This document shows, one piece after another, positions 1-38,505 of a stretch of DNA of 64,000 nt. The notes beneath the pieces are model-generated. The model had not been told where the DNA came from. It ran no database searches and worked only from the letters and a program-made list of their open reading frames with translations. Numbering within the stretch: the stretch's first letter is position 1; each line of letters starts with the position of its first letter. The position numbers were made by a program, and so were the translations under genes. Origin of the DNA: Diphasiastrum complanatum (lineage: Eukaryota; Streptophyta; Lycopodiopsida; Lycopodiales; Lycopodiaceae); contig CM055096.1 in the NCBI GenBank assembly GCA_029204225.1, forward strand, positions 77,490,580-77,554,579. The letters run 5' to 3'.

Positions 1-1412
1 GAAAGCTGCTGATACATCTGCGTGCTAGGAAAAGAGTGTGCGCTGGCAACCTCAACATGCAAGGGATGAGGCGTAATGACTGGCATAGCACGAATGCGTG
101 TAGTAATATGACTGCTGAGAAACGAGTGAGTGCTAATCGTGTCAACAAGGGCAATAAACTTACGACCAGTGATACGTACGCGAAGACGGATATGGCGTGG
201 AGCCGGCTTACCGGCCCAAGTAGCATAAGCAAGCTGAGCATGGCATACAACTAGATCAGGAACAAGCTCAGTGGGTGTGGCAAACTGATCAACTGGTGGG
301 TCATCATCAAGAATATGAAGGCATATGGCAGAATCAGGACTATCATCAGGTGTGTCAGCATCATGGAAATAGACGGTAGTAGTAGTGGCAGGCTGTCGGC
401 AGTCACGGGCGATATGATCAGGACTCTTACAGCTGAAACATACGCGCTTCTCACGGATCTCAGACATCTCAGGCTGTGAGTAGCGACGAACAAAAACAGG
501 ATGAGGAGAAAAAGGAGGACGTGGTGCAGAAGGAAGAGTGGACGAAGGTGAACTGACAGATGTGGGACTAGCAGAGGATGGAGAGGAAAAAATAGGATGT
601 GTGAAAGGACGCGAAGGACGAGAAACAGAGGAAGAGATGGGAGAGTACTTGTGCGGCAGTGCGGTAGCAAGGGAGATGGCGTGAGAAAGAGTGAGTGGAA
701 AAAAAGAAGAAACATCATACCTGAGTGCGCCTCGTAGACCAGCAACGTAGCGAAAGATGAGCTCCAATGTAGAAATATCTGGGAATAGATAGGAAAGCTC
801 TGTAAACCGTGTCGTATAAGCAGCCAAGTCACGAGTGTGAGATAAACTGCGAAAGACGTCGCGCTGTCGAATAAGCCACTGAGGATCAATCATCGCTAGG
901 CGGAGTGTTGTCATAAACTCTGTCCAACTAGCAAGGCCAGGGTGTGAAGCCGTCTGGCGAAACATGCGCCACCAAGTAGCAGCACGGCCTTCCAAATGTA
1001 AAGCAGCCAAATGTATCCGCTGAATGTCAGTCTTAGGAAACATAAGGAAGTAGGTCTCAAGCTTAGAATACCAATTCTCGAGTTCATTCCCATCGGATGA
1101 CCCAAAATACACAGTAAGCTGAACCTTATCCTTAAAGTCTTGTGGCAAAGGGCCAGAAGATGAAGGATTCTTGGGTGGTGGAAATGTACGTTGTGGGGGA
1201 ACAGGTGGAGATAGTGGAGAAACATTGGACTGTAATGATAGTGTAGCAATCTGGGTAGAAAGAGCAGTGAACGTCTCTTGTAACTCCTGGCGTAAATCAG
1301 TGCGTACATCACTCATGGCTTCCCTAAGATGATCTTGGAATTCATGCCGTACTTCGACAAGGTAAGTGGAAGACGGTATGCGAGGCTCAGAAGATGTAGG
1401 GGAAGTATCCAT
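1..1412 (-). CDS. Ty3/gypsy gag-protease polyprotein, 3' part off the window edge
   Basis: The frame is open from an ATG at 1412 to the left edge, about 470 codons without a stop. Residues about 100-250 form a Retrotrans_gag domain: a YFGSSDGNELENWYSKLE segment, then an AATWWRMF segment and a TRFTELSYLFPD segment. A Ser/Pro-rich linker follows. The zinc knuckle CFSCKSPDHIARDC (CX2CX4HX4C) lies near 425-465. The retropepsin region is reached near 125-170, but it reads ALVDTISTHSF where an active enzyme has D-(S/T)-G. Gag is therefore intact while the protease has lost its glycine. RT, RNase H and integrase would lie left of the window. The element is antisense to MYB3R and lies within one of its introns. 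Confidence 0.85.
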   Translation of the reverse strand, partial: MDTSPTSSEPRIPSSTYLVEVRHEFQDHLREAMSDVRTDLRQELQETFTALSTQIATLSLQSNVSPLSPPVPPQRTFPPPKNPSSSGPLPQDFKDKVQLTVYFGSSDGNELENWYSKLETYFLMFPKTDIQRIHLAALHLEGRAATWWRMFRQTASHPGLASWTEFMTTLRLAMIDPQWLIRQRDVFRSLSHTRDLAAYTTRFTELSYLFPDISTLELIFRYVAGLRGALRYDVSSFFPLTLSHAISLATALPHKYSPISSSVSRPSRPFTHPIFSSPSSASPTSVSSPSSTLPSAPRPPFSPHPVFVRRYSQPEMSEIREKRVCFSCKSPDHIARDCRQPATTTTVYFHDADTPDDSPDSAICLHILDDDPPVDQFATPTELVPDLVVCHAQLAYATWAGKPAPRHIRLRVRITGRKFIALVDTISTHSFLSSHITTRIRAMPVITPHPLHVEVASAHSFPSTQMYQQL

Positions 1413-2162
1413 GGTCAAGGAATGCAGGAAGTGAAGAGAGTGTAAGAAAAGCTTAATATCGGAGGGAGTGGACTTTTGTCGTCACCCCAAATACACTTTA
1501 GGTACACAAACGACACTAAGAGCAAGAAAGGAAATGACAAATGTCAAGAAAAGGTGTGGAAAGCAAGGAAAAACCAGCAAAGATACCTCTTGATAGAGCT
1601 CCAAGCGTGTGCGAAGAGCTGGCTGGAAAATGTGACCACAAGGAGAATGAAAGTGGGCGCTGGACAGCCTCCAATCAATGCTGAAAATATGGCTGGAAAT
1701 TTGTGGAAAACGTGATGAAATAGGGCAATGGACAACCTCCAATCAAAACTGAAATATGGCTGAAACTCTACTGGAACAATGGCTGAAAAATGTGATGAAG
1801 TAGGGGGCGCTGGACAGCCTCCAATCAATGCTGAAAAGATGGCTGAGAATCCTTTCCTTGAATCAAATGGAGGATTCAAAAAAAAAGAAGAGGGAAAAGG
1901 ATTTGGAACTTGGGCGCCGGAAATAATCTGCCCAATTTTTTTTTTTCTTTTCCGGCCGCCAAATCTAGCGGAAATACTTCCGCTAACTATCTGCTAAAGC
2001 TCCGCCCAGGAAAATGCTCTGATGGGAGTTGGTCCTCCTCCAAACTGTGCTGAATGTTGCTGAAGCAAAGAGACGAAAGCCCTCAGCAAAGAGAGAAAAA
2101 TCAGCAAGGAAAATGGGCACCCAATCAGAAAATCAAATCTGAAATTCAGCAACCAGGAAAGT
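1413..2162 (-). other. Untranslated leader of the gypsy element
   Basis: This is the stretch between primer-binding site and gag start. It holds an imperfect tandem repeat: three copies of a roughly 70-80-bp unit, starting near 1655, 1723 and 1805. The core is GGACAGCCTCCAATCAATGC followed by CTGAAAATATGGCTG or a variant. No coding frame is convincing. Confidence 0.6.
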
Positions 2163-2174
2163 GCTCTGATACCA
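2163..2174 (-). other. Primer-binding site (initiator Met tRNA) of the gypsy element
   Basis: Read on the - strand this is TGGTATCAGAGC, the usual plant tRNA-iMet primer site. It lies 5 nt downstream of the proposed LTR end. Confidence 0.8.
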
Positions 2175-2179
2175 AGTTA

Positions 2180-2674
2180 TGATCAAAATCTCAGGTGTTG
2201 AATCAATGAAGTATAAAAGATAGCAATACACTAAAGCCCTACAAGCAATAGACAAGACAATAGGTTCTCCCACGAAGAGCCCAAGCAATACCAATGAATA
2301 ATCTGAAAAATGAGTGTACAAATGCCCCTTTAAATACCCTACCAATGAACCCTAAAATAGGAATTCAAAAGTAAACGGAGGCAAAATGTGGAGGAAAAAT
2401 AGTGCACCCTCCTACGGCGCCCCCCACTCCACATATAACCATATAATAAGGGCCCAAGGCCAGTCAATGTCATAAAAAAGGACCCAGTCTGGGTCATAAG
2501 CATATAAAAAGGCTCTGGGGCCTGTACATGACTAATATAAAATGCGTAACCAGAAATATACATAAACAACAGTAAATGTAAAGAGGCCTGTGGAATATAT
2601 GCAGAGTAGCCTAGTAGGCTTGTATCCTGTAGTCCGTAACTAAGGGTGGAGGGCCATTTTTTCTCCCTGGATCA
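2180..2674 (-). repeat. 5' LTR of the gypsy element
   Basis: The LTR is bounded by TGATC at its start (right side) and GATCA at its end, adjacent to the primer-binding site. That gives 495 bp with a 5-bp inverted terminus. A TATA-like element, TATTTAAAGG on the - strand, lies near 2331-2340. The second LTR is outside the window, so the outer boundary rests only on the terminal inverted repeat and position. Confidence 0.6.
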
Positions 2675-3452
2675 ATGAGAGAGCTCTGTTTTGAATATCA
2701 GACTTGTCAGGCAATGTAGTGTCAAATGGCCCGAAGTGTTTCAAAGGTTTCACCTTTTCGCGAATTTTCTTCCTTTAGGTTATTAGTCATTAGTGCAAGT
2801 TACATATGATAATTTTGTAAGTTGCATTCTTAATGGTAAACAAAATCCTTTGACCAACACAAATAAGCATCACAATCCACATTATTAATGCATTCAATCG
2901 TTTCCAAGGCAGAAAGCATACAAGGAGAAGAAATGTCCACATTTCCATTAATTTTATATGACATGTTTGATAAATTTCTGAAAACAATGAACTCCATATT
3001 TGATTAGGTTCTCATGTAGGTGCTCAATATTCTTTAATAAACGCGAGTTGAAAATTGAGATGGTGTTAGAAAAGCCTTTCAGCATCTCGTTGCCCATTTG
3101 AGCAGAAGCATCATGGCAGCTTATTTTAACATATGCCCATGCCCAGACTTGTGCATTCGACATCTCTCCCCCATGTTTGTTGCACAATTAGGGGTCAAAT
3201 ATTGCTGGATAAGGTCTTCAATTTTATCTATTCAATTATAGGCATACAATAGTCGTATGGTAACTCTAATAAGCTAAGTGCATGCAGCCTTACACATCTT
3301 TTTAGTTTTAGGTGAACATACACGTCTTTAGTACTATCATTTATCAACGCTCTCAAAATGGATTATGAAACAATGCTCTACTTCTGAGTTGAGAACCCAG
3401 TTGTTTTCTCCTATTGGTATTTAATGTGATATATTCTTTGTTTTATGAACAG
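2675..3452 (+). other. MYB3R intron sequence, 5' of the first visible exon
   Basis: AT-rich, with no convincing coding exon or transposon ends. It ends with the acceptor TTATGAACAG before 3453. The R1 start of the MYB domain was looked for here and not found. Confidence 0.5.
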
Positions 3453-3547
3453 CGGAGTACTTTAGTGATAGGACCGATGTACAATGTCTACACAGATGGC
3501 AAAAAGTTCTTAATCCCGATCTTATCAAGGGACCTTGGACAAAAGAG
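3453..3547 (+). CDS. MYB3R: MYB3R exon: end of R1, start of R2
   Basis: The acceptor is AACAG and the donor GAG|GTAGG. It begins with the last two bases of a split codon and encodes EYFSDRTDVQ, CLHRWQKVLN and PDLIKGPWTKE. The final residues open R2. Confidence 0.9.
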
Positions 3548-6500
3548 GTAGGACCTAATGCATATCCTTTCTGAAGTATTGGATTTGACATATGATGCAA
3601 ATTTCTTGCTAGTGATAATGTCGAAAAGGTCATTGGAGGTTGGCTGGAATTATTGCAATCAAATTTGGATTAAGTTATCTTTCTGGATGGTACCTTGAAT
3701 CTCATAGTACCTTGTGTTTTCAGGAAGATGACAAGATAGTGGAACTTGTGAACAAGTATGGAGCTAAGAAATGGTCTGTTATTGCACAGAACCTCCCTGG
3801 CCGTATAGGCAAACAATGCCGGGAAAGGTAGGAAAAGGGTTGGTTTTCTTGTACTATCCATTTATTGTTTTCTTAGAGTGCACAACTCATGGTATATTAG
3901 AACAAGTCTATCATCGAGTTAAAGGCGTTCAGGTTTATCAATTGAACAACTGAGCATTGGAACCTTTCATCATCTCCTCAGAAATGATGTTGTATTTCAG
4001 ATGGCATAATCATCTAAATCCAAATATCAAGCGAGAGGCATGGTCAGAACAAGAAGATCTTGCACTAATTTATGCCCATAAAGTGTATGGAAACAAGTGG
4101 GCAGAAATCGCGAAGTTTTTGCCTGGACGGTACCGTCTATTTTGTTTATGTCTTTTGTATCGTGTATTCCCCTTCATCTAGTAGAATGAGAAGCCATGTG
4201 GTGTAGCATATTAACTCATTAAGTTACGGAAGTGCTGTAAGTTTTAAGTTGAGATGTTTTTCTGCTGGCTAAGTCCTTCCATTTCATCTTATTTTGGTTT
4301 CAGTACGGACAACTCTATTAAGAATCATTGGAATAGCACTATGAAAAAAAAGGTTGACCCCACTTCGGCAGTGGATCCTATATCAAAAGCTCTTGCAGCA
4401 TACCAATCACAACATGAGACAAATTCTAGTTGTCCATTGGAGGCACGACCACCATTTTGTCCACTACCTTTGGAAGGCCATGTCCCTCAGCTGAACAGTG
4501 CAAGCACAGCTTCTGCGTCAGTGACCTTTGTGGAAGCCCTTACTATCCACACCCCTACTATCGATGCTTTGGTTAGGGTGACGGAATCTTCTGCTCATGC
4601 CAGTAATGAGCAGTTTGATACCTTTAAGGTGGGAAGTTCTGAAATGACATCACCCCCTATGTTTGAGAACGTTGGTAGGGCAAATTTCCGTCTGGACTCA
4701 CTAGTTTTGCAGAAAGCACTTTCGAAGCCACCTCATCCAACAAGCGGAATGACCTCACTACCAGGTTTACCATCACTACTCTCAGGAATGAGCCAGATCT
4801 CTATGTCTAAGGTGCTTTCTGACTGTACGTCTGGATTGAGTCCTGAGCGAGCATCTTACGACTATTGCACTTCTGTAAATACTGCAGATATTAACCTGCC
4901 CTTAATCTCTTCCCAAGCTATGGTGGATGCTGAATGCAGCATGGGCCTTTGTGAAGAATCACCGTCATCACTGATGTCTTTATTGTCTGATAGTCCTGTT
5001 GGTCCTACTTCATTGGCTCTTACAGCCTCAGTAGGCATGAAGCATAACAGCTTGTTATCTTCGACTTCAGTTGATATTGAATGTGGAAGTGTGGGTTCAC
5101 AAATGGAAGAGTCTCCAGGGAACATCCTTATTCATTGTTTAGAACCAGTCATTAACTTATTAAATAACACAAAAATTGGACATGATCAAATAGCAGAGAC
5201 TGAGGTGAGTCAGTACAAAGATGAACTAGTAAGGGCTGATGAGGTAAGCACGTCAACAGCAGTTTCCTTTTGTTCATCAGAGTCAGTTTCTCTTGAACAT
5301 CAGACTTTTACTAGTCCGGAATTATTATTTTACCAGCCACCTCGCTTAACCAGTTCCGATCTTCCATTTTTGAGTTACGATCTTATATGTCCCAGCAATG
5401 ACTCAAATGAGGATTACAGCCCTCTGGGTGTCAGGCAGATGATCATGCCTTCTCTGAATTGTACCACTCCTTTTGGTTATGCTATAAACTCTCCCTGGAT
5501 AAAAAAGACTCCTCAGCAGAAGCTTAAATATGCTGCGAGAAGCTTTGGTGTCACTCCTTCCATTATGCGAAAACGGCCTAGGCCACTGCTAAGCCCTTTG
5601 TCTGGAGCTTTGCAAAATGATCAAAAGCAAGAGCCAAATGATGCAGCTACGAGTAGTGAAGGTGCTGAGGGTAATGGCTCTGATGGTACTGTTTCATGTG
5701 AAGCTAAAGGATCCATTGAAAACTCTGCTGGGAAACAGACCGTTTCTTTTCGAGAAGATTCCTCAGTGGTTGGAGGATGCAGTAAAGCTTGTGATGGTGT
5801 AGCTCTGTGGGTATCTCCTCCTTATAATCTGACAAGCAAGAGTGTAGCAGTCATCAATGTGGATGACAATGGGAGTGATGACTTCAGAAGACTGCGAAAC
5901 AGATACCAAATATGTGCAGAAGAAATCAATGCTGAAGAACTTGGAACCAAGAGCCCAGGTGTATCCATTGACAACCTGGCAGACAAGGCACCTTCAAACA
6001 AGAGATTTGAAAGCAATATAAGAAAGTCTTCCAAAAGAGGGAGAGCTGCACGACTAGTTCAACAGAGGCCTGTGAATGGTAAACTGAATCTGGACCAGGA
6101 CTATAAGATCAAGGTACTCTATCTCACTACGAGTTGTATATTTTATTGTAGAACTTAAGAGTTGATATTATTGTACCCTACTTATGTTAAATTAATGCCA
6201 TACCTGCATCGGATGCAACATTGTTCTGGACAGCAGAATGCTGTCTGGAAAGCTATATTTTATGTTATTTCTTGTACTAGAAATAGGAAAAAACTATCTC
6301 AAAGCTGCTTTCTAACATTGAAACCAGATTTTTTTAAGTTCTCAAAGAATTTGCAAACAATGAGAACAAAAAACAACGAAAAATAAATGCCGCTTTCATC
6401 CTATACTTTGGCGGCTTTCTCAAACAGTGAAACTAGGGTTGTACAGTCCCAAATTTTTTTTGGATATAAAATGAATTATCTGGCGTTATTATTGGCTTTC

Positions 6501-30907: not shown

Positions 30908-31864
30908 ACTTTTTTTTTTGGAAACTTAAAGATACTATTAGATTTCCACAAAATGTACAAGTGCAAAAGTTGGTAGCCCGAGGCCGAGACAAAAAAAGTC
31001 CAAAGGGACAGCCTGTACATCCTACAAGATGAGGACTATAGCACACCACGCAGGGAGGCAGTTCGAAAAACTAAGTAGAATGCATAAAAAAGTAGCCATA
31101 CGAAGACAAACTGCAGCCGAAACAGGAGAAGCATAGCCCTCAAAAACCTGTTCATGCTATCCATAGCTTCCACAGAATTGACAATCTGCAAATATGCCAC
31201 ATGGTTAAAGCAGAGCGATTAGAAATAGCAGAATCGCCCAGCAGAACGGTGTCAATGTCCGGAGAAAAGGTGAAACTCCAATGAGGAAGCAGGCAGGCGA
31301 GCTGAGCCCATAAATCCCGTCGACAATAAAAGAACAGGTGCTCTGCCGTTTCTTCTTCCAGCTGGCAAATAGGACAAAGGCGACCAGGAAGAAAAGGCCA
31401 TTTAGACAGAAGCGAGAGGGATTTAGTAAGAATGTGTTAGGCAAGGTATCTAAGTTTTCCAATGGGGAGAGAGCGAGAGAGAGAGAGAGAAAGTCTTTTC
31501 CTCCATTGAGAGGGGTCAAGCGAGACATACCAGAGGGAGTTAAAAAAGCCCGGGAAAAGAGAAGGGTTGAGGCGACGGTGCAAGGCGGTATAAGCAAAAA
31601 GACGGTGCAAGGCGGTATAAGAAAAAAGAGATAGGTCCAAGGGGGGGTCCAAGCCTTGAAAGTCAAGAAGCGGAAAGGGGGAGAGATGCAAGGGAGTTTC
31701 CAGGGAGGTGGCAAGAAAGAGGAGGGAACACTCACTGGACGAGAGAGTGTCAGAAGACAAAATTTGGCAGGGAGGGACGTGAACAATCTGCCCAAGAGTG
31801 GTAAGGCCCTTAGAGGCCAAAGAGAAGAAGAGACGAGGGTGGGAGAAAAAAAGAGAGTAAGCGA
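30908..31864 (-). pseudogene. LINE ORF2 3' part with RT zinc-binding domain
   Basis: Frame near 31440-31320: LPGRLCPICQLEEETAEHLF then FYCRRDLWAQLACLLPHWSF, a good zf-RVT motif (CPxC-x8-HLFxxC). It ends in a T-tract on the + strand at 30908-30919. The right end is abruptly replaced at 31865 by the TRIM. The missing upstream RT part of a similar LINE, same strand, is found at 37634-38505. Confidence 0.75.
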
Positions 31865-32008
31865 TGTTGGAATATCAATCCACACTCTAGAGAGAACTAT
31901 CAAATAGGGTGGATAGCTCAGTGGTAGAGCATCTCATCCGGTATGAGGGAGGTCCTGGGTTCGAATATTAGCCTGTCCATCCATATTATGATTTATGGAT
32001 TTTTAACG
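31865..32008 (+). repeat. Left LTR of the TRIM
   Basis: It begins TGTTGGAATATCAATCC and ends TTTTAACG just before the primer site; the expected CA end is mutated. It differs from the right LTR by a few substitutions and a 4-nt insertion. Confidence 0.75.
31907..31983 (+). other. tRNA-like sequence in left LTR
   Basis: The 7-bp acceptor stem GGGTGGA/TCCATCC forms fully with one G-T. The D arm GCTC/GAGC is perfect. A 5-bp anticodon stem TCTCA/TGAGG holds a 7-nt loop TCCGGTA, formally anticodon CGG (Pro) but with C instead of U at position 33. The A box TAGCTCAGTGG is a perfect consensus; the B-box-like GGTTCGAATAT is close. The T stem is poor and 4 extra nt precede the acceptor strand. It is tRNA-derived rather than a working tRNA gene. 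Confidence 0.75.
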
Positions 32009-32021
32009 CGATATCAGAACC
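32009..32021 (+). other. Primer-binding site of the TRIM
   Basis: CGATATCAGAACC resembles the initiator-tRNA site TGGTATCAGAGCC and lies immediately after the left LTR. Confidence 0.65.
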
Positions 32022-32114
32022 AAGTTAGACCTAATAGTTCATGGTGTCAAAGCCATGGTTAGGTGGCCCAAGTTGTGGGGCAGGTGACAGCTAGGACCCC
32101 AACCAAGTGTGGCT

Positions 32115-32126
32115 TGAGGGGGGGGG
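32115..32126 (+). other. Polypurine tract of the TRIM
   Basis: A GAGGGGGGGGG run directly precedes the TGTTGG start of the right LTR. Confidence 0.75.
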
Positions 32127-32269
32127 TGTTGGAATATCAATCCACACTCTAAAGAGAACTATCAAACAGAGTGGATAGCTCAGTGGTAGTTAGAGCATCT
32201 CATCCGGTATGAGGGAGGTCCTGGGTTCGAATCATAGTCTGTCCATCCATATTATGATTTATGGATACA
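32127..32269 (+). repeat. Right LTR of the TRIM
   Basis: It starts TGTTGGAATATCAATCC and follows the left LTR to TTTATGGAT. It then ends ATACA or is truncated at the junction with copia leader sequence. Confidence 0.7.
32169..32249 (+). other. tRNA-like sequence in right LTR
   Basis: Same fold as the left copy: acceptor GAGTGGA/TCCATCC and the same anticodon arm and loop. The D loop is enlarged by a 4-nt insertion (GTGGTAGTTAGAGC). The A box is intact and the B-box-like GGTTCGAATCA is present. The T-stem changes differ from the left copy, so the two decayed independently. Confidence 0.75.
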
Positions 32270-32838
32270 TCATTTCATTCTATTTCCTTGATGCTAGGTC
32301 CAAAGGTACTGACATTATAGCTTGCTAGAAAGCTAGAAGAGTCTACTTTCCAGTGCAATTAGTTTCAATTCATTCTGATGATCCTAGTAGGAGTTATTAG
32401 CTCTTAAAGACGGGTAGGGAGAGACCCAAAACTCGAGTGGACACTTTTTGATTTGAATATATTGCATGCATGATTAATCATTCACAGTTTTTTGTACTCA
32501 ATCAAAGATAGAATTGGATAAGACAAGTTTCTGTTGTCATAGTCACATCATTTCACACAAATGATTGTGTTTGAGTTGCATGTGTGTTTTTGAGTGCTTT
32601 TCATTCATTTGAAATTCATGAAAAAATTTGACATCAGAATTGTCAGTGCTTCATCAGTAATAGAGGGTAGATCCAAATTCAAGTTGATTGGTTCTTTGTA
32701 GTGAGCAAGATCTCACATAGCTGTTGCAAGATTTACATAGGATTTGGTAGTACCCAATTGTTTTGGTTCCTATAGTGAAAGAGAAGCAACACATTCAATT
32801 CCATTTTGTTGTCCAATTTACAAGGAGTCTTCACATTC
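32270..32838 (+). other. Leader of a copia element, 5'-truncated
   Basis: From about 32265 it matches the reverse complement of 36640-36900 (for example GGGTAGGGAGAGACCCAAAA near 32414). The primer site and 5' LTR expected upstream are missing; the TRIM sits there instead. Confidence 0.65.
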
Positions 32839-33862
32839 ATGGCATCTATAGGAGATTTTCTCTTTGAAGCTAGTGAGAGACTAGATACCTCCAACTATTC
32901 AGTTTGGAAGGATATGATAGAATCTTTGTTGGTTCTTTATGGTGTAATGGACATAGTATTAGGAATTGAAGTTGAACCTGAAGCTTGTGATGAGGCTCAA
33001 AGGTTCAAGAAGAGAGCAAGGATTGCTCTTCATATTGAACATCTATGATGAGATGTTGAGAGAAATAAGTTCATGTACCTCAGCCAAGCAGACTTGGGAA
33101 ACCCTTAAGAACTTTTTTGAAGCAAAGTTCACATCAAGACTTCTTACTCTTAGAAATCAAATCTTTTCTAGTTTTCAAAGAGTTAATGAAAGTGCTTCAA
33201 GTTTTGTAATGAGAGTTAAAGATCTTCACAGAGAGATACCATGCATAGGAGATACTCTAGAGAATAGTCAACTTGTTCAAGTAGTCCTTAATGGACTTAG
33301 AGAAGAGTATGCAAATGTTGTGCAAACTTACGCTATCATGAAGGAGTTACCATCTATGGAGGCTTTGCATGATGTTCTTATTGCTAAAGAATGCAGGCAA
33401 AAGAACAAGATGCTGAAGATCAACACACTTTCAAGGAAGGATGGTGATTGTGGCAAAGCTCACTTTGCCAAGGACAAGTCAAGAGGGAGGAGCAAGAACA
33501 AATACTCTCAAGCCTTCACCAAGGACAAATCAAAGGACAAAGCAAAGGACAAAGACCAAGGAGGAGTAGAAGATGATTCAACTCATTCTTCTATCTTCAA
33601 GAAGAAGACTCAAGAAAATCAAGCCAATTTTACCATAGAAGACTCACATGCAAGTGAAGGAGAAGCATCTCTCATGATGCCTAGTTTCTCCTCTTTACCC
33701 TTCAATGATGTAACTTGGTATATTGATAGTGGAGCCACAACTCATATGAGTTGCTCAAGAGTTCTTTTATTTCTATTGAATCTGATCAAGGACTTCAAGA
33801 ATCAATATACATTGTTGTTGGTGATGCATGTTCAATTGAAGGAGTTGGAATTTGTTCCTTGA
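32839..33862 (+). pseudogene. Copia gag-protease, frameshifted
   Basis: It starts MASIGDFLFEASERLDTSNY then SVWKDMIESLLVLYGVMDIV, the gag N-terminus. A frameshift near 33040 leads to EMLREISSCTSAKQTWETLK, then RVKDLHREIPCIGD and LVQVVLNGLREEYANVVQTY (UBN2-type gag). The zinc-knuckle position has only CGKAHFAKDKS, with most metal ligands gone, followed by Lys-rich repeats. The protease start is VTWYIDSGATTHMSC. Another frameshift near 33755 separates the SNVLYVPNLDVHLSLSV segment at 33890-33950. Integrase and RT are absent. Confidence 0.85.
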
Positions 33863-35273
33863 ATCTTGCATCTTCTATGAGTTTATCACTTTCCAATGTA
33901 CTTTATGTTCCTAATCTCGATGTTCATCTTTCTTTATCAGTAAGCAAGGAAGGTGTCTCTTGCTTTGCATTTACTATTAACAATTGGCTATGTCTTGTCT
34001 CTTCAAGTTTCATGATGCATGTGTATTTTCCATTATGCAAAGCTTTTTGGAGTTATGGAGCTATTGGAAGGATTGCACTATATGGAGTCTTGTTCAACTA
34101 TAAGCCTAAGGTTGTGTACCTTAGTGTTCTTGAAGGTTATTGCTTTGCATGTGTTTTCTTGGAAGCAAGGATGGAGATCCAAGCTTATGGATCATGGTTG
34201 GATCCTTATCCACCAAGGAAGGCTACATAGCCTTTATACTCTTTATCTCGAAGGTGTTTGAGCATGGAGATTTTATTGATTTTGAAGATCTATTTTCAAC
34301 CTTGGAAGGGGCCAAGAGCAGTGCATCTCAATATGCATCACAGTTAGTTTCTTTTGCAGAAAGCCAACTTGTGGTGGGTCGAGGTTTGAGGAGGAGTATC
34401 CTCAACGTGAATGTTCAAGATCATCTTCATTGTACAAGGCCAAGTCCTTGTTGTTCTTATTTCATGGAAAAGAAAGGATAAGTGAAGGCGGTATATATTC
34501 TATTGTACTCACCTATGTTTCTCTTTTTTTGGTTGATGTTGTATCTTGCTTAATTGAGACCTGCTTATCTCAAAGATTAAGTAAGACTATAGTTTTGAAT
34601 GAAGTCTTTAGTTTGGAATTAATTCTTGTCATTGGTGACTTGATTATGTTTCCAAAATATCTAGAAAGCAAGATATCGTATCATCATTTGTGTGCTCTTA
34701 AATTGAGTAAGAGCAAGAATGAGTTTAGTACTCATAGTTTGGAAAAAGGAGTTTTTTCATGTTTTGAGGCATATTGTAAACTTCTTTTGAGAGTAAGTGA
34801 AACATCCAATGAGGACACTTACATCCTTAAGAAAGTATTTAGCCTCAATGAGATTTTGGTTTCAAGATTAGATCCATTTTGGATAGAGTTCATAGTGTTT
34901 GGACTAATTAAGCTAGTGTGCTTAATCTTGAATATTGCTCATGGTATAATCTTGATCTATATGATCTTTGTGATCATGATGAGGCATGGAGGCCTCGAGT
35001 TTTTCAGATTCTTATGCAGCCATCTTCATGCATGTGGACTTCTCAAATCTGAGATCAGTATCAAGCATGGAGGAGGCATATCGACATAGTGGCAGATTGG
35101 TGGAATATTTTTTAAAGGCATTTGGAAAAGATTTCTATCAAAGAGATCTTATCGTGGATTTGGTAAGCGTGCTGCTATGATGGATTCTTTGGATCTTCAC
35201 TTCAAATGCAAAGCAAAGAATTCACACACAAAGGATATTCATCAACATCATATAGATATATTTTAAGGAGGAG
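33863..35273 (+). other. Decayed 3' internal region of the copia element
   Basis: Several overlapping frames (34140-34481, 34430-35089) have no recognised domain. No RT or RNase H motif is visible. It ends in the purine tract AAGGAGGAG at 35265-35273. Confidence 0.5.
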
Positions 35274-36133
35274 TGTGAAGAATTGTAAAACATATCTATC
35301 TTACGTATGTTGATTTTGGGGGTTCTACCCATGTAAATTGATTGTACATATTCAAGGTGTGTGAATTGAGCACATATCCTTGTAGAATAGGGCGAGTTTG
35401 GATTAGGTAGATCAAATTCCATTGACATGCAAAATGTTTAGTTGATCTAGTATGACATGCAACAATGTTCACAATGTCTAGAGTGACATACATGTAGATT
35501 CACACATAGAATTGGTCAAATATGGACTTGGAGGAACTCGAGCTATATCAAATCCATTGTGTCCTAAGTTTCTATTGAGACATGCATAACATGCAAATAT
35601 AGTAATGGACACATGCAAGTAGAATTGTAGGTTCATAGTTGAGAAATTGACTTCTGGAGAAAGTAGGTAGAAGTTAGGTTCAATTTCTGCATGCAAGCTG
35701 TTAGGTGTCAATATGGTGGTAGTTTACACTTGATTAGGTGTAGGAAATGCATTGAATGCTAGTAGTACCATGAGCTAAGGCCCTCCTATATATGTACATA
35801 TGGTTCTCATTCATTTCTAATGATGAAGCAAGCTTTGGTAAGGTCATAATGTCAAAATTGGATCTCATGCTATTTTGCTTGTAATTGTATTCTCTTTCTA
35901 ATTCGAGATTGGTGTCTTCTTCATACATTATTATGCTTATGTATTTTTCCTATTTGTGAGGAATTAGTGTTGCTTTGATCTGTAGCATTTTAAATTGTGC
36001 TCTAGCCTCAAATCTGTTGGTAGATTGTAGTATTACTCTGCAGGTGATTTGTGTGCCACCATAAAGCATGGTAAAGATCATTCACACTTTTGTTGTGGTT
36101 CCCCACATGTGTGAAGTTGCTGGATTTTTCACA
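35274..36133 (+). repeat. Copia LTR with internal sequence on both sides
   Basis: It starts TGTGAAGAATTGTAAAAC right after the polypurine tract. It ends TTTTTCACA right before a primer site (36134-36146, TGATATCAGAGCC). An LTR normally has only one of these on each element end, so it is shared by two internal regions. Confidence 0.75.
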
Positions 36134-36260
36134 TGATATCAGAGCCATACCATGCTTTGAATGCTACTAACATCAGGTGTGTGAAATTTTTTTCGACAAT
36201 TCAAGCTAGAAAGTTGTTTAGCCCTTTTTTGTTATCTATTCTTGAAATTTTTTTGGATCA
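36134..36260 (+). other. Primer site and leader start beyond the LTR
   Basis: It matches the reverse complement of 36980-37105 (for example AAGCTAGAAAG and CTATCTATTCTTGAA). It breaks off at ATCAATGAG, where inverted LTR sequence begins. Confidence 0.65.
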
Positions 36261-36601: not shown

Positions 36602-37105
36602 ACACATAAGAATCTGACAAATTCGAGGCCTCCATGCCTCATCTTATCCAATTCTATCTTTGATTGAGTACCAAAAGCTGTGAATGATGAATCATGCATG
36701 CAATATATTCAAATAAAAAAGTGTCCACTCGGGTTTTGGGTCTCTCCCTACCCCTCTTTAAGAGCTAATAACTCCTACTAGGATCATCAGAATGAATTGA
36801 AACCAAGTGCACTGGAAAGTAGACTCTTCTAGCTTTCCAACAAGCTATAATGTTAGTACCTTTGGACCTAGCATTAAGGAAATAGAATGAAATGATGTAT
36901 TTTGGTTTTCACATGTGTGAAAAGTCAGAATTCCATACATCCTCTGTTCTGGACTAAAAATATCAGTTGTAACCTCATTGATCCAAAAACTGTTCAAGAA
37001 TAGATAGCAAAAAAGTGCTAAACAGCTTTCTAGCTTGAATTGTCAGAAAATTCTTCATACACCTGATATTAGTAGCATTCAAAGCATGGTATGGCTCTGA
37101 TATCA
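36602..37105 (-). other. Inverted copia leader with primer site
   Basis: Includes 36640-36900, the inverted copy of the leader at 32265-32525. The primer site on the - strand at 37093-37105 is TGATATCAGAGCC. Confidence 0.7.
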
Positions 37106-37633
37106 TGTGAAAAATCCAGCAACTTCACACATGTGGGGAACCACAACAAAAGTGTGAATGATCTTTACCATGCTTTATGGTGGCACACAGATCACCTGCA
37201 GAGTAATACTACATTCTACCAACAGATCTAAGGCTAGAGCACAATCTAGAATGCTACAAATCAAAGCAACACTAATTCCTCACAAATAGGGAAAATACAT
37301 AAGCATAATAATGTATGAAGAAGACACCAATCTCGAGTTAGAGAGAGAATACAATTACAAGCAAAATAGCATGAGATCCAATTTTGACATTATGACCTTA
37401 CCAAAGCTTGATTCATGATTAGAAATGAATGAGAACCATATGTACATATATAGGAGAGCCTTAGCTAGTGGTATTACTAGCATTCAATGCATTTCCTCAA
37501 GTTACCACCATATTGACACCTAACAACTTGCATGCAGAAATTGCATCTAACTCTACCTACTTTCTCCAAATGCCAATTTCTCAACTATGAACCTACAATT
37601 CTACTTGCATGTGTCCATTACTATATTTGCATG
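37106..37633 (-). repeat. Inverted copia LTR, 5'-truncated
   Basis: On the - strand it ends GGATTTTTCACA next to the primer site and matches 35590-36133. About 310 bp of the LTR start is missing, replaced by LINE sequence at 37634. Confidence 0.7.
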
Positions 37634-38505
37634 CAAGGTTCTTAAGCAGGAAGGGCCATTTGAAATGAAAAGAACAACCAAAAGAAATGAGGTTTTTCAA
37701 AATTGGTGAGGGTTGGAGCAAAGAAGGAACACAGTCAATGAGGCGATATAAGAAAGCAGAAACGCTTGCCAATGATGAACAGGATGCAGAAGAGAAGAAA
37801 GGCGACGAAGCACCAAAGAGCAATTTTTAAGGGTGGGGTCTAGAATACCCAGACCACCATCCACAATAGGAGCATAAAAAACACACCAAGAAAGAAGTGG
37901 ACGCTTCCCAGCCTAGTGGAAACAATGAAGAGATTTGGAGAGGGCGTTGTGAAGAGAATGAGTAGCCACAAAGAGAGATGAAAAGTAAACTGTATAGGTC
38001 AAAAGAATATACCTAGCCACCAAGACTCTTGAGGGAAAAGACATAAAATGTGGATCCCAAGAGGCCAGCTTGGCAGCGAGGGAGTCCAGAAACTAGCGGG
38101 AACGTTGGGCGGAAGTCAAGTGAATACCAAAAGGAATACCAAGAAGACGAGTAATCGTGCCATGAGGAACCACTCGGATACCTAGAGTGGAAATCCAGAG
38201 GGGAGTGGAAAAGGAAAGAACATGAAGCTCAGACTTGCATTTATTGAGAAGGGAGGAGGATCAATAGTAGAATTCTTCAAAAAGAGAGAGGAGGTAACAA
38301 ACATGTGCCTCAGCAAGAAGAGAAAGAAGACTGACATCATCAGCAAAAAGTTGATGAGGAAGAGGACCCGCGAGTGAAAAGACAGGAGAAATAAGACGAG
38401 CAGAAGCAAACCGGTGGAAAGCACAAGAAAGAGGCTCAGTAGCAATGGAAAAAGCATAGGCGAAAGAGGACAACCTTGTCGAATGGCACAAGAAGGGAAG
38501 AAAGG
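37634..38505 (-). pseudogene. LINE reverse transcriptase remnant
   Basis: Frames on the - strand give SCAIRQGCPLSPMLF and, in another frame, FSIATEPLSCAFHRFASARL then PLPHQLFADDVSLLSL. These are the RQGCPLSP and xADD motifs of L1-type RT, broken by a frameshift between them. The rest is decayed. It fits as the upstream part of the LINE whose zinc-finger end is at 30908-31864. Confidence 0.8.

Follow-up and report, generated by a model that had tools for sequence, protein, structure and literature searches.

The question raised by this locus is whether a miniature LTR retrotransposon (TRIM) of Diphasiastrum complanatum carries a tRNA-like Pol III module as a regular part of its LTRs, or whether a tRNA-derived sequence was merely caught there. 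The original prediction, drawn from the letters of the window (the whole 64,000-nt stretch analysed here, C5:77490580-77554579), favored the first answer and proposed a tRNA version of the Cassandra TRIM. Its interpretation is supported by our analysis. We consider it highly probable that the feature in the window is an old copy, truncated at its 3' end, of a high-copy, non-coding TRIM family of the Helenus kind, with a 73-nt tRNA-like module in the LTR.

The window copy and its family

The full TRIM layout, with both LTRs, primer site, internal region and purine tract, is present in the window as predicted (forward strand throughout). Direct repeats of the element form two blocks of 76 and 63 nt (96% and 95% identical, with spacings of 266 and 262) that sit in 31865-32000 and 32127-32266. 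The 5' LTR (31865..32008) starts where it had been placed but is 144 bp long, not 140 bp; it begins with TGTTGG and ends with TTTTTAACG, compared with TTTCTAACA in the family. Its tRNA-like module occupies 31907..31979 (LTR positions 43-115). The perfect A box that had been described was found there from 31914, and the B box is decayed, reading GGTTCGAATAT versus GGTTCGAATCC in the family. At the end of the module lies a perfect 7-bp hairpin, ATCCATA...TATGGAT (31979..32000; LTR positions 115-136). The non-coding internal region (32009..32126) has the predicted length of 118 bp; it opens with a degenerate primer-binding site (CGATATCAGAACCAAG, 32009..32024) and closes with a polypurine tract of nine G (32118..32126). 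The 3' LTR spans 32127..32266 and is truncated; its last 8 nt (TTCTAACA) are absent. Its tRNA-like module (32169..32245), 4 nt longer than that of the family, is the single tRNA called by ARAGORN over the whole window. The Rfam tRNA model stayed below its cut-off in the window and in L001, the window copy among the loci described below.

The element had been thought to extend to 32269. However, the sequence 3' of 32266 (ACATCATTTC) is matched by the internal sequence of a Copia element. Its join to the TRIM 3' LTR lies at a GGAT common to both, and 32269 is therefore not the true LTR end. The Copia remnant (32263..36133, forward strand) consists of the internal region, with a gag frame at 32963-33862, followed by LTR sequence matched from 35341 to 36133; its primer site is found after the LTR sequence, at 36134. 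No target duplication flanks the window copy, where AGCGA on the left is paired with TTTCA (at the fuzzy end) or TCATT (after 32269).

Several other sequences were recorded alongside the element. A purine-rich stretch lies directly upstream (31401-31864) and contains a 27-bp tandem duplication at 31574-31627. Two Copia LTR copies, 93% identical, stand in opposite orientation at 35590-36147 and 37092-37634, with primer sites at 36134 and 37105. An open frame of 636 aa (4248-6158) has no Pfam match; we take its start to resemble the end of a MYB DNA-binding repeat. In the genome as a whole, a chlB model gave 11 matches, all of them fragments and none above the family cut-off (best E 3.0e-24), with nuclear fragments at C2078:28829, C16:47504189, C1:71879244, C13:45864790 and others. 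Those with equal or near-equal scores over the same stretch of the model are perhaps duplicates. Three short fragments of rbcL were also present. Since angiosperm plastids are not known to carry chlB, the chlB fragments suggest that the host is probably not an angiosperm.

With the 405-bp element as query, a search of the 1.74-Gb genome returned 42 scored matches of ~400 bp from 1,189 first-look candidates. Forty of these were retrieved, the remaining two overlapping L014 and L027 as parts of arrays. Judged by their flanks, the 40 loci represent 33 distinct insertion sites, with seven loci being duplicates. Because the 33 sites are the best-scoring copies, this sample is biased towards young copies; the first and last LTRs differ by 0-5 mismatches at 31 of the sites, and the exceptions are the window copy and the array L014. 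A 56-nt tRNA-like core, with up to three mismatches allowed, was found at 1,199 genome sites, and its reversed-pattern control at none.

Intact copies measure ~404 bp (403-408 bp for those with two LTRs), with LTRs that are 144 bp long in 74 of 82 cases, carry the ends TGTTGG...CTAACA and enclose an internal region of 116 bp. Copies of this size have room for about 135 codons at most and, judged by length, lack a coding region, as Helenus elements do. The primer site TGGTATCAGAGCCAAG, which we take to pair with the 3' end of plant tRNA-iMet, follows the 5' LTR exactly in 35 of the 40 aligned rows, and a G-rich run precedes the 3' LTR in all 40, being interrupted in a few (L013, L015, L037). 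Tandem arrays of the form LTR-internal-LTR-internal-LTR occur at L014 and L027 (three LTRs each) and also at L067 and L083.

Exact 5-bp target duplications were found outside the LTRs at 23 of the 33 distinct sites, and five more sites show them with one mismatch. When flanks of different sites were paired as a control, run with misplaced starts for L008, L014 and L031, exact agreement was seen in 2 of 1,056 pairings. The remaining five sites are the window copy, L002, the array L014, L009 (where 4 bp agree) and L012; L002 has a purine tract upstream and is hence part of an array. Full copies with 5-bp duplications, for which a search had been suggested, therefore exist elsewhere in the genome, and the layout of LTR, primer site and purine tract is not confined to the window. 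Other Helenus families were sought as a B box followed by a primer site at 50-80 nt, and the four matches all belong to this TRIM family. A variant pattern, GTAGCTC..., matched 11 places, all of them close variants of the family by their matched letters, and the five that were retrieved all lie in TRIM LTRs.

The tRNA-like module

The recurrence of the module in both LTRs, claimed for the window, holds across the family: of the 82 LTRs in the 40 loci (the seven duplicate loci included), 81 received a tRNA call from ARAGORN that begins at LTR position 42 or 43. The Rfam tRNA model, a check of the kind that had been suggested, was applied to ten loci with 21 LTRs and exceeded its cut-off of 29 bits in 18 of these LTRs (31.5-52.4 bits). 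The three that it missed are the two LTRs of the window copy and the first LTR of the L027 array. At the gathering threshold Rfam gave tRNA alone in these ten loci, with no 5S rRNA, the hallmark of Cassandra, in the LTR. Both LTRs contain tRNA-derived sequence with the motifs TRGCY, YGG and GGTTC that define Helenus. At the 33 sites, the A box is present in 68 of 68 LTRs and the B box GGTTCGANTCC in 56.

Pairing was assessed in 61 LTRs of exactly 144 nt, a set that includes the 5' LTR of the window copy. Each pair forms in 56-61 of them in the acceptor stem and in 59-61 in the D stem. The T stem had been described as decayed, which is true of the window copy but not of the family, where each of its pairs forms in 58 to 60 of the 61 LTRs. 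In the anticodon arm, which has a 7-nt loop, the stem is imperfect, and the third of its pairs forms in 11 of 61. Every pair of the adjoining hairpin is kept in 60 or 61. The fold predicted from the start of the module (LTR position 43) to the end of the LTR is a cloverleaf plus the hairpin, whereas that of the whole LTR is not a cloverleaf. Among the young copies compared, the module shows no higher conservation than the remainder of the LTR: variation over all columns is 0.0171 in the module versus 0.0081 and 0.0091 outside it, and in A/T columns the values are about equal (0.0047 versus 0.0054 and 0.0080). We infer that the module has the looks of a promoter that retained the form of a tRNA, and not those of a decoding tRNA.

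Such a module might have arrived as a tRNA-derived SINE that inserted once into an ordinary TRIM LTR, the pair then being duplicated together with its surroundings and the tRNA part having no role. Kojima suggests that elements of this type arose through the insertion of a SINE (PMC10886601), and an ancient SINE insertion may accordingly have taken place at the birth of the family. As an account of the copies themselves, however, this history is very unlikely. In 81 of 82 LTRs the tRNA call occupies the same place, at either end of an element, the target duplications lie outside the LTRs, and no direct repeat of 5-9 nt surrounds the module in the single LTR scanned. Family copies are spread over many chromosomes with differing target duplications, which is not expected from duplication of one block. 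We also sampled 20 of the core sites, namely the first listed with one mismatch (18 on C1 and two on C2), which are well-conserved sites (duplicates among them: L065, L076, L077; L078, L079). All 20 lie inside a TRIM LTR aligned over at least 142 nt, and 19 adjoin TRIM internal sequence, so that insertion of a SINE followed by duplication does not explain the family. A tRNA-like part outside an LTR with target duplications of its own, which the original prediction had named as the outcome that would overturn it, was not seen among these 20 sites. The twentieth site (L072 / L113) is a lone TRIM LTR directly followed by TGGTATCAGAGCCTTCC, a different primer-site sequence, and is perhaps a fusion with another element. 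There is still less to be said for the idea that duplication of a block trapped an ordinary tRNA gene or pseudogene. ARAGORN does report tRNA-Thr or tRNA-Pro in most LTRs, but the called identity varies from copy to copy (mostly Thr-GGT or Pro-CGG, with others), the sampled modules are all inside LTRs, and the best identity among 20 of the 63 scored tRNA places compared was 66%, to Arg-TCG; no parent tRNA gene was found among those places. We regard this origin as exceedingly unlikely.

If the module acts as an internal promoter, the TRIM would be transcribed by Pol III, as its A and B boxes suggest; Pol III transcription is putative in the published Helenus members too (PMC10886601). Thirty of the 33 elements lack a T4 run, so that the 3' LTR offers Pol III no obvious terminator. 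However, when one copy was shuffled 2,000 times, T4 was absent from 1,138 of the shuffled sequences, so this absence proves nothing for or against Pol III, and we rejected it as a sign of selection because it is expected by chance. The module could instead serve as an RNA-processing or RNA-stability signal (an RNase P or RNase Z cut) in a Pol II transcript. The cloverleaf and adjacent hairpin predicted from the module start to the LTR end would suit such a role, as would the 30 copies without a T4 run. On the other hand, the boxes are retained (A box 68/68, B box 56/68), the imperfect anticodon stem (third pair 11/61) would be tolerated by a promoter, folding of the whole LTR predicts no cloverleaf, and Pol III use is reported for Cassandra (PMC10886601). 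We therefore find a processing signal in place of a promoter improbable.

Copia fusions and a proposed cycle

At L109 the order of parts is Copia LTR, TRIM internal region, TRIM LTR, Copia internal region and Copia LTR. Each of the two junctions falls at the primer site, and GGATT stands on either side of the whole fusion unit (296-4572). Next to the unit lies an open frame that resembles Copia pol. L110 and L111 have the same two primer-site junctions, and at L112 a partly deleted TRIM LTR is joined to the internal region of the same Copia. A junction pattern searched with up to three mismatches gave 147 genome matches and none in the control; among the 100 matches listed, the TRIM LTR end is present in four (0 or 1 mismatch), and the letters of most of the rest are those of the LTR end of the Copia itself. 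If a TRIM circle with one LTR underwent a single crossover at the primer site that it shares with Copia, an arrangement of the L109 type would result; it might also come from strand transfer in reverse transcription. The Copia LTR identities (83-93%) are compatible with one or several origins of the fusions.

In the window, the TRIM 3' LTR enters the same Copia internal region past GGAT, window position 32263 matching L109 position 1545. The window copy is thus fused to Copia with a deletion at GGAT, which explains both its missing LTR end and its missing target duplication.

The TRIM LTR and internal region have no match in the Copia parts of L109, and the Copia LTR ends (TGTRAAG...TTCACA) differ from those of the TRIM, so the case for this Copia family as a helper is built on the fusions and on the primer site that the two elements share. 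On these sequence features, we propose it as a candidate helper of the TRIM.

In the cycle that we find likeliest, Pol III would bind the A and B boxes of the module in the 5' LTR, and its transcript would cross the internal region and run on into the 3' LTR. Copia would provide the capsid, the reverse transcriptase and the integrase in trans, as the primer site, the 5-bp duplications and the Copia fusions suggest. Judging by where the two sites lie, minus-strand synthesis would be primed by a tRNA, probably iMet, at TGGTATCAGAGCCA, and plus-strand synthesis by the G tract. The product would integrate with the 5-bp target duplication that is observed at the insertion sites, and later recombination would yield the LTR-internal-LTR-internal-LTR arrays and the TRIM-Copia fusions, both of which exist as structures in the genome. 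The window copy may then have formed as a TRIM-Copia fusion followed by deletion at GGAT; the join itself is observed, and this order of events is the one we suppose. A more speculative version, which we consider a long shot when taken as a whole, makes the cloverleaf and stacked hairpin a two-in-one device, acting as internal promoter in the 5' LTR and as RNA-end signal (RNase P/Z) in the 3' LTR that would define where the R region begins and ends with no Pol III terminator needed, and at the same time reads the primer-site-exact fusions as strand transfer between the TRIM and its Copia helper inside one particle.

Relation to known elements

Like the TRIM family described here, tRNA-derived SINEs have a tRNA-like head with A and B boxes, but to our knowledge they have no LTRs, primer site or purine tract. 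Ordinary plant TRIMs, as far as the consulted portion of the survey by Gao et al. (2016, PMC4717578) describes them, resemble the family in size, structure and tandem arrays, and that portion reports TRIMs in the lycophyte Selaginella. No tRNA module is described for them, and the main text of the survey contains neither "tRNA" nor "polymerase III". Cassandra, a TRIM of vascular plants, in the part of its description used here (PMC7215508), shares with the family a sequence derived from a Pol III gene in the TRIM LTRs, tandem LTR-internal arrays and the primer-site motif TGGTATCAGAGC. In contrast to the tRNA module seen here, Cassandra carries 5S rRNA, and the same part of its description gives it conserved Pol III terminators (PMC7215508), whereas a T4 run is wanting in most of our elements.

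The closest counterpart is Helenus (Kojima 2024, PMC10886601), a TRIM with tRNA-like sequence in its LTRs that is described from fungi, animals and one plant (Selaginella) and is grouped with Cassandra and Ajax as TRIMp3. Our family shows the structural features of Helenus that were examined, and its assignment to this group is a structural one. In both, each LTR holds a tRNA-like sequence provided with A and B boxes, and the likeness extends to the primer site, the purine tract, 5-bp target duplications (found in plant and fungal members), tandem arrays (found in one zebrafish family) and a tRNA identity that is mostly not functional (PMC10886601). Helenus-1_SMo of Selaginella, the only plant family listed, has an LTR of 120 bp and an internal region of 85 bp, compared with 144 and 116 bp here. 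The hairpin after the module and the primer-site fusions with Copia are not mentioned in the portion of the Helenus description consulted (PMC10886601). No second plant report of Helenus, TRIMp3 or a tRNA-like TRIM was found in the limited literature searched.

The tRNA counterpart of Cassandra that the original prediction proposed does exist, but it is already published as Helenus (PMC10886601) and is not a new concept. What is new is a second plant family, the hairpin after its module and the primer-site-exact fusions with one Copia family. A second, high-copy family makes Helenus more than an oddity in plants and provides copies on which transcription of an LTR element by Pol III can be tested. 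Software takes the LTRs of this family for tRNA genes, which can inflate tRNA counts. The Copia fusions, finally, name a candidate helper, where the 2016 survey is reported to have found none for 278 of 289 plant TRIM subfamilies (PMC4717578).
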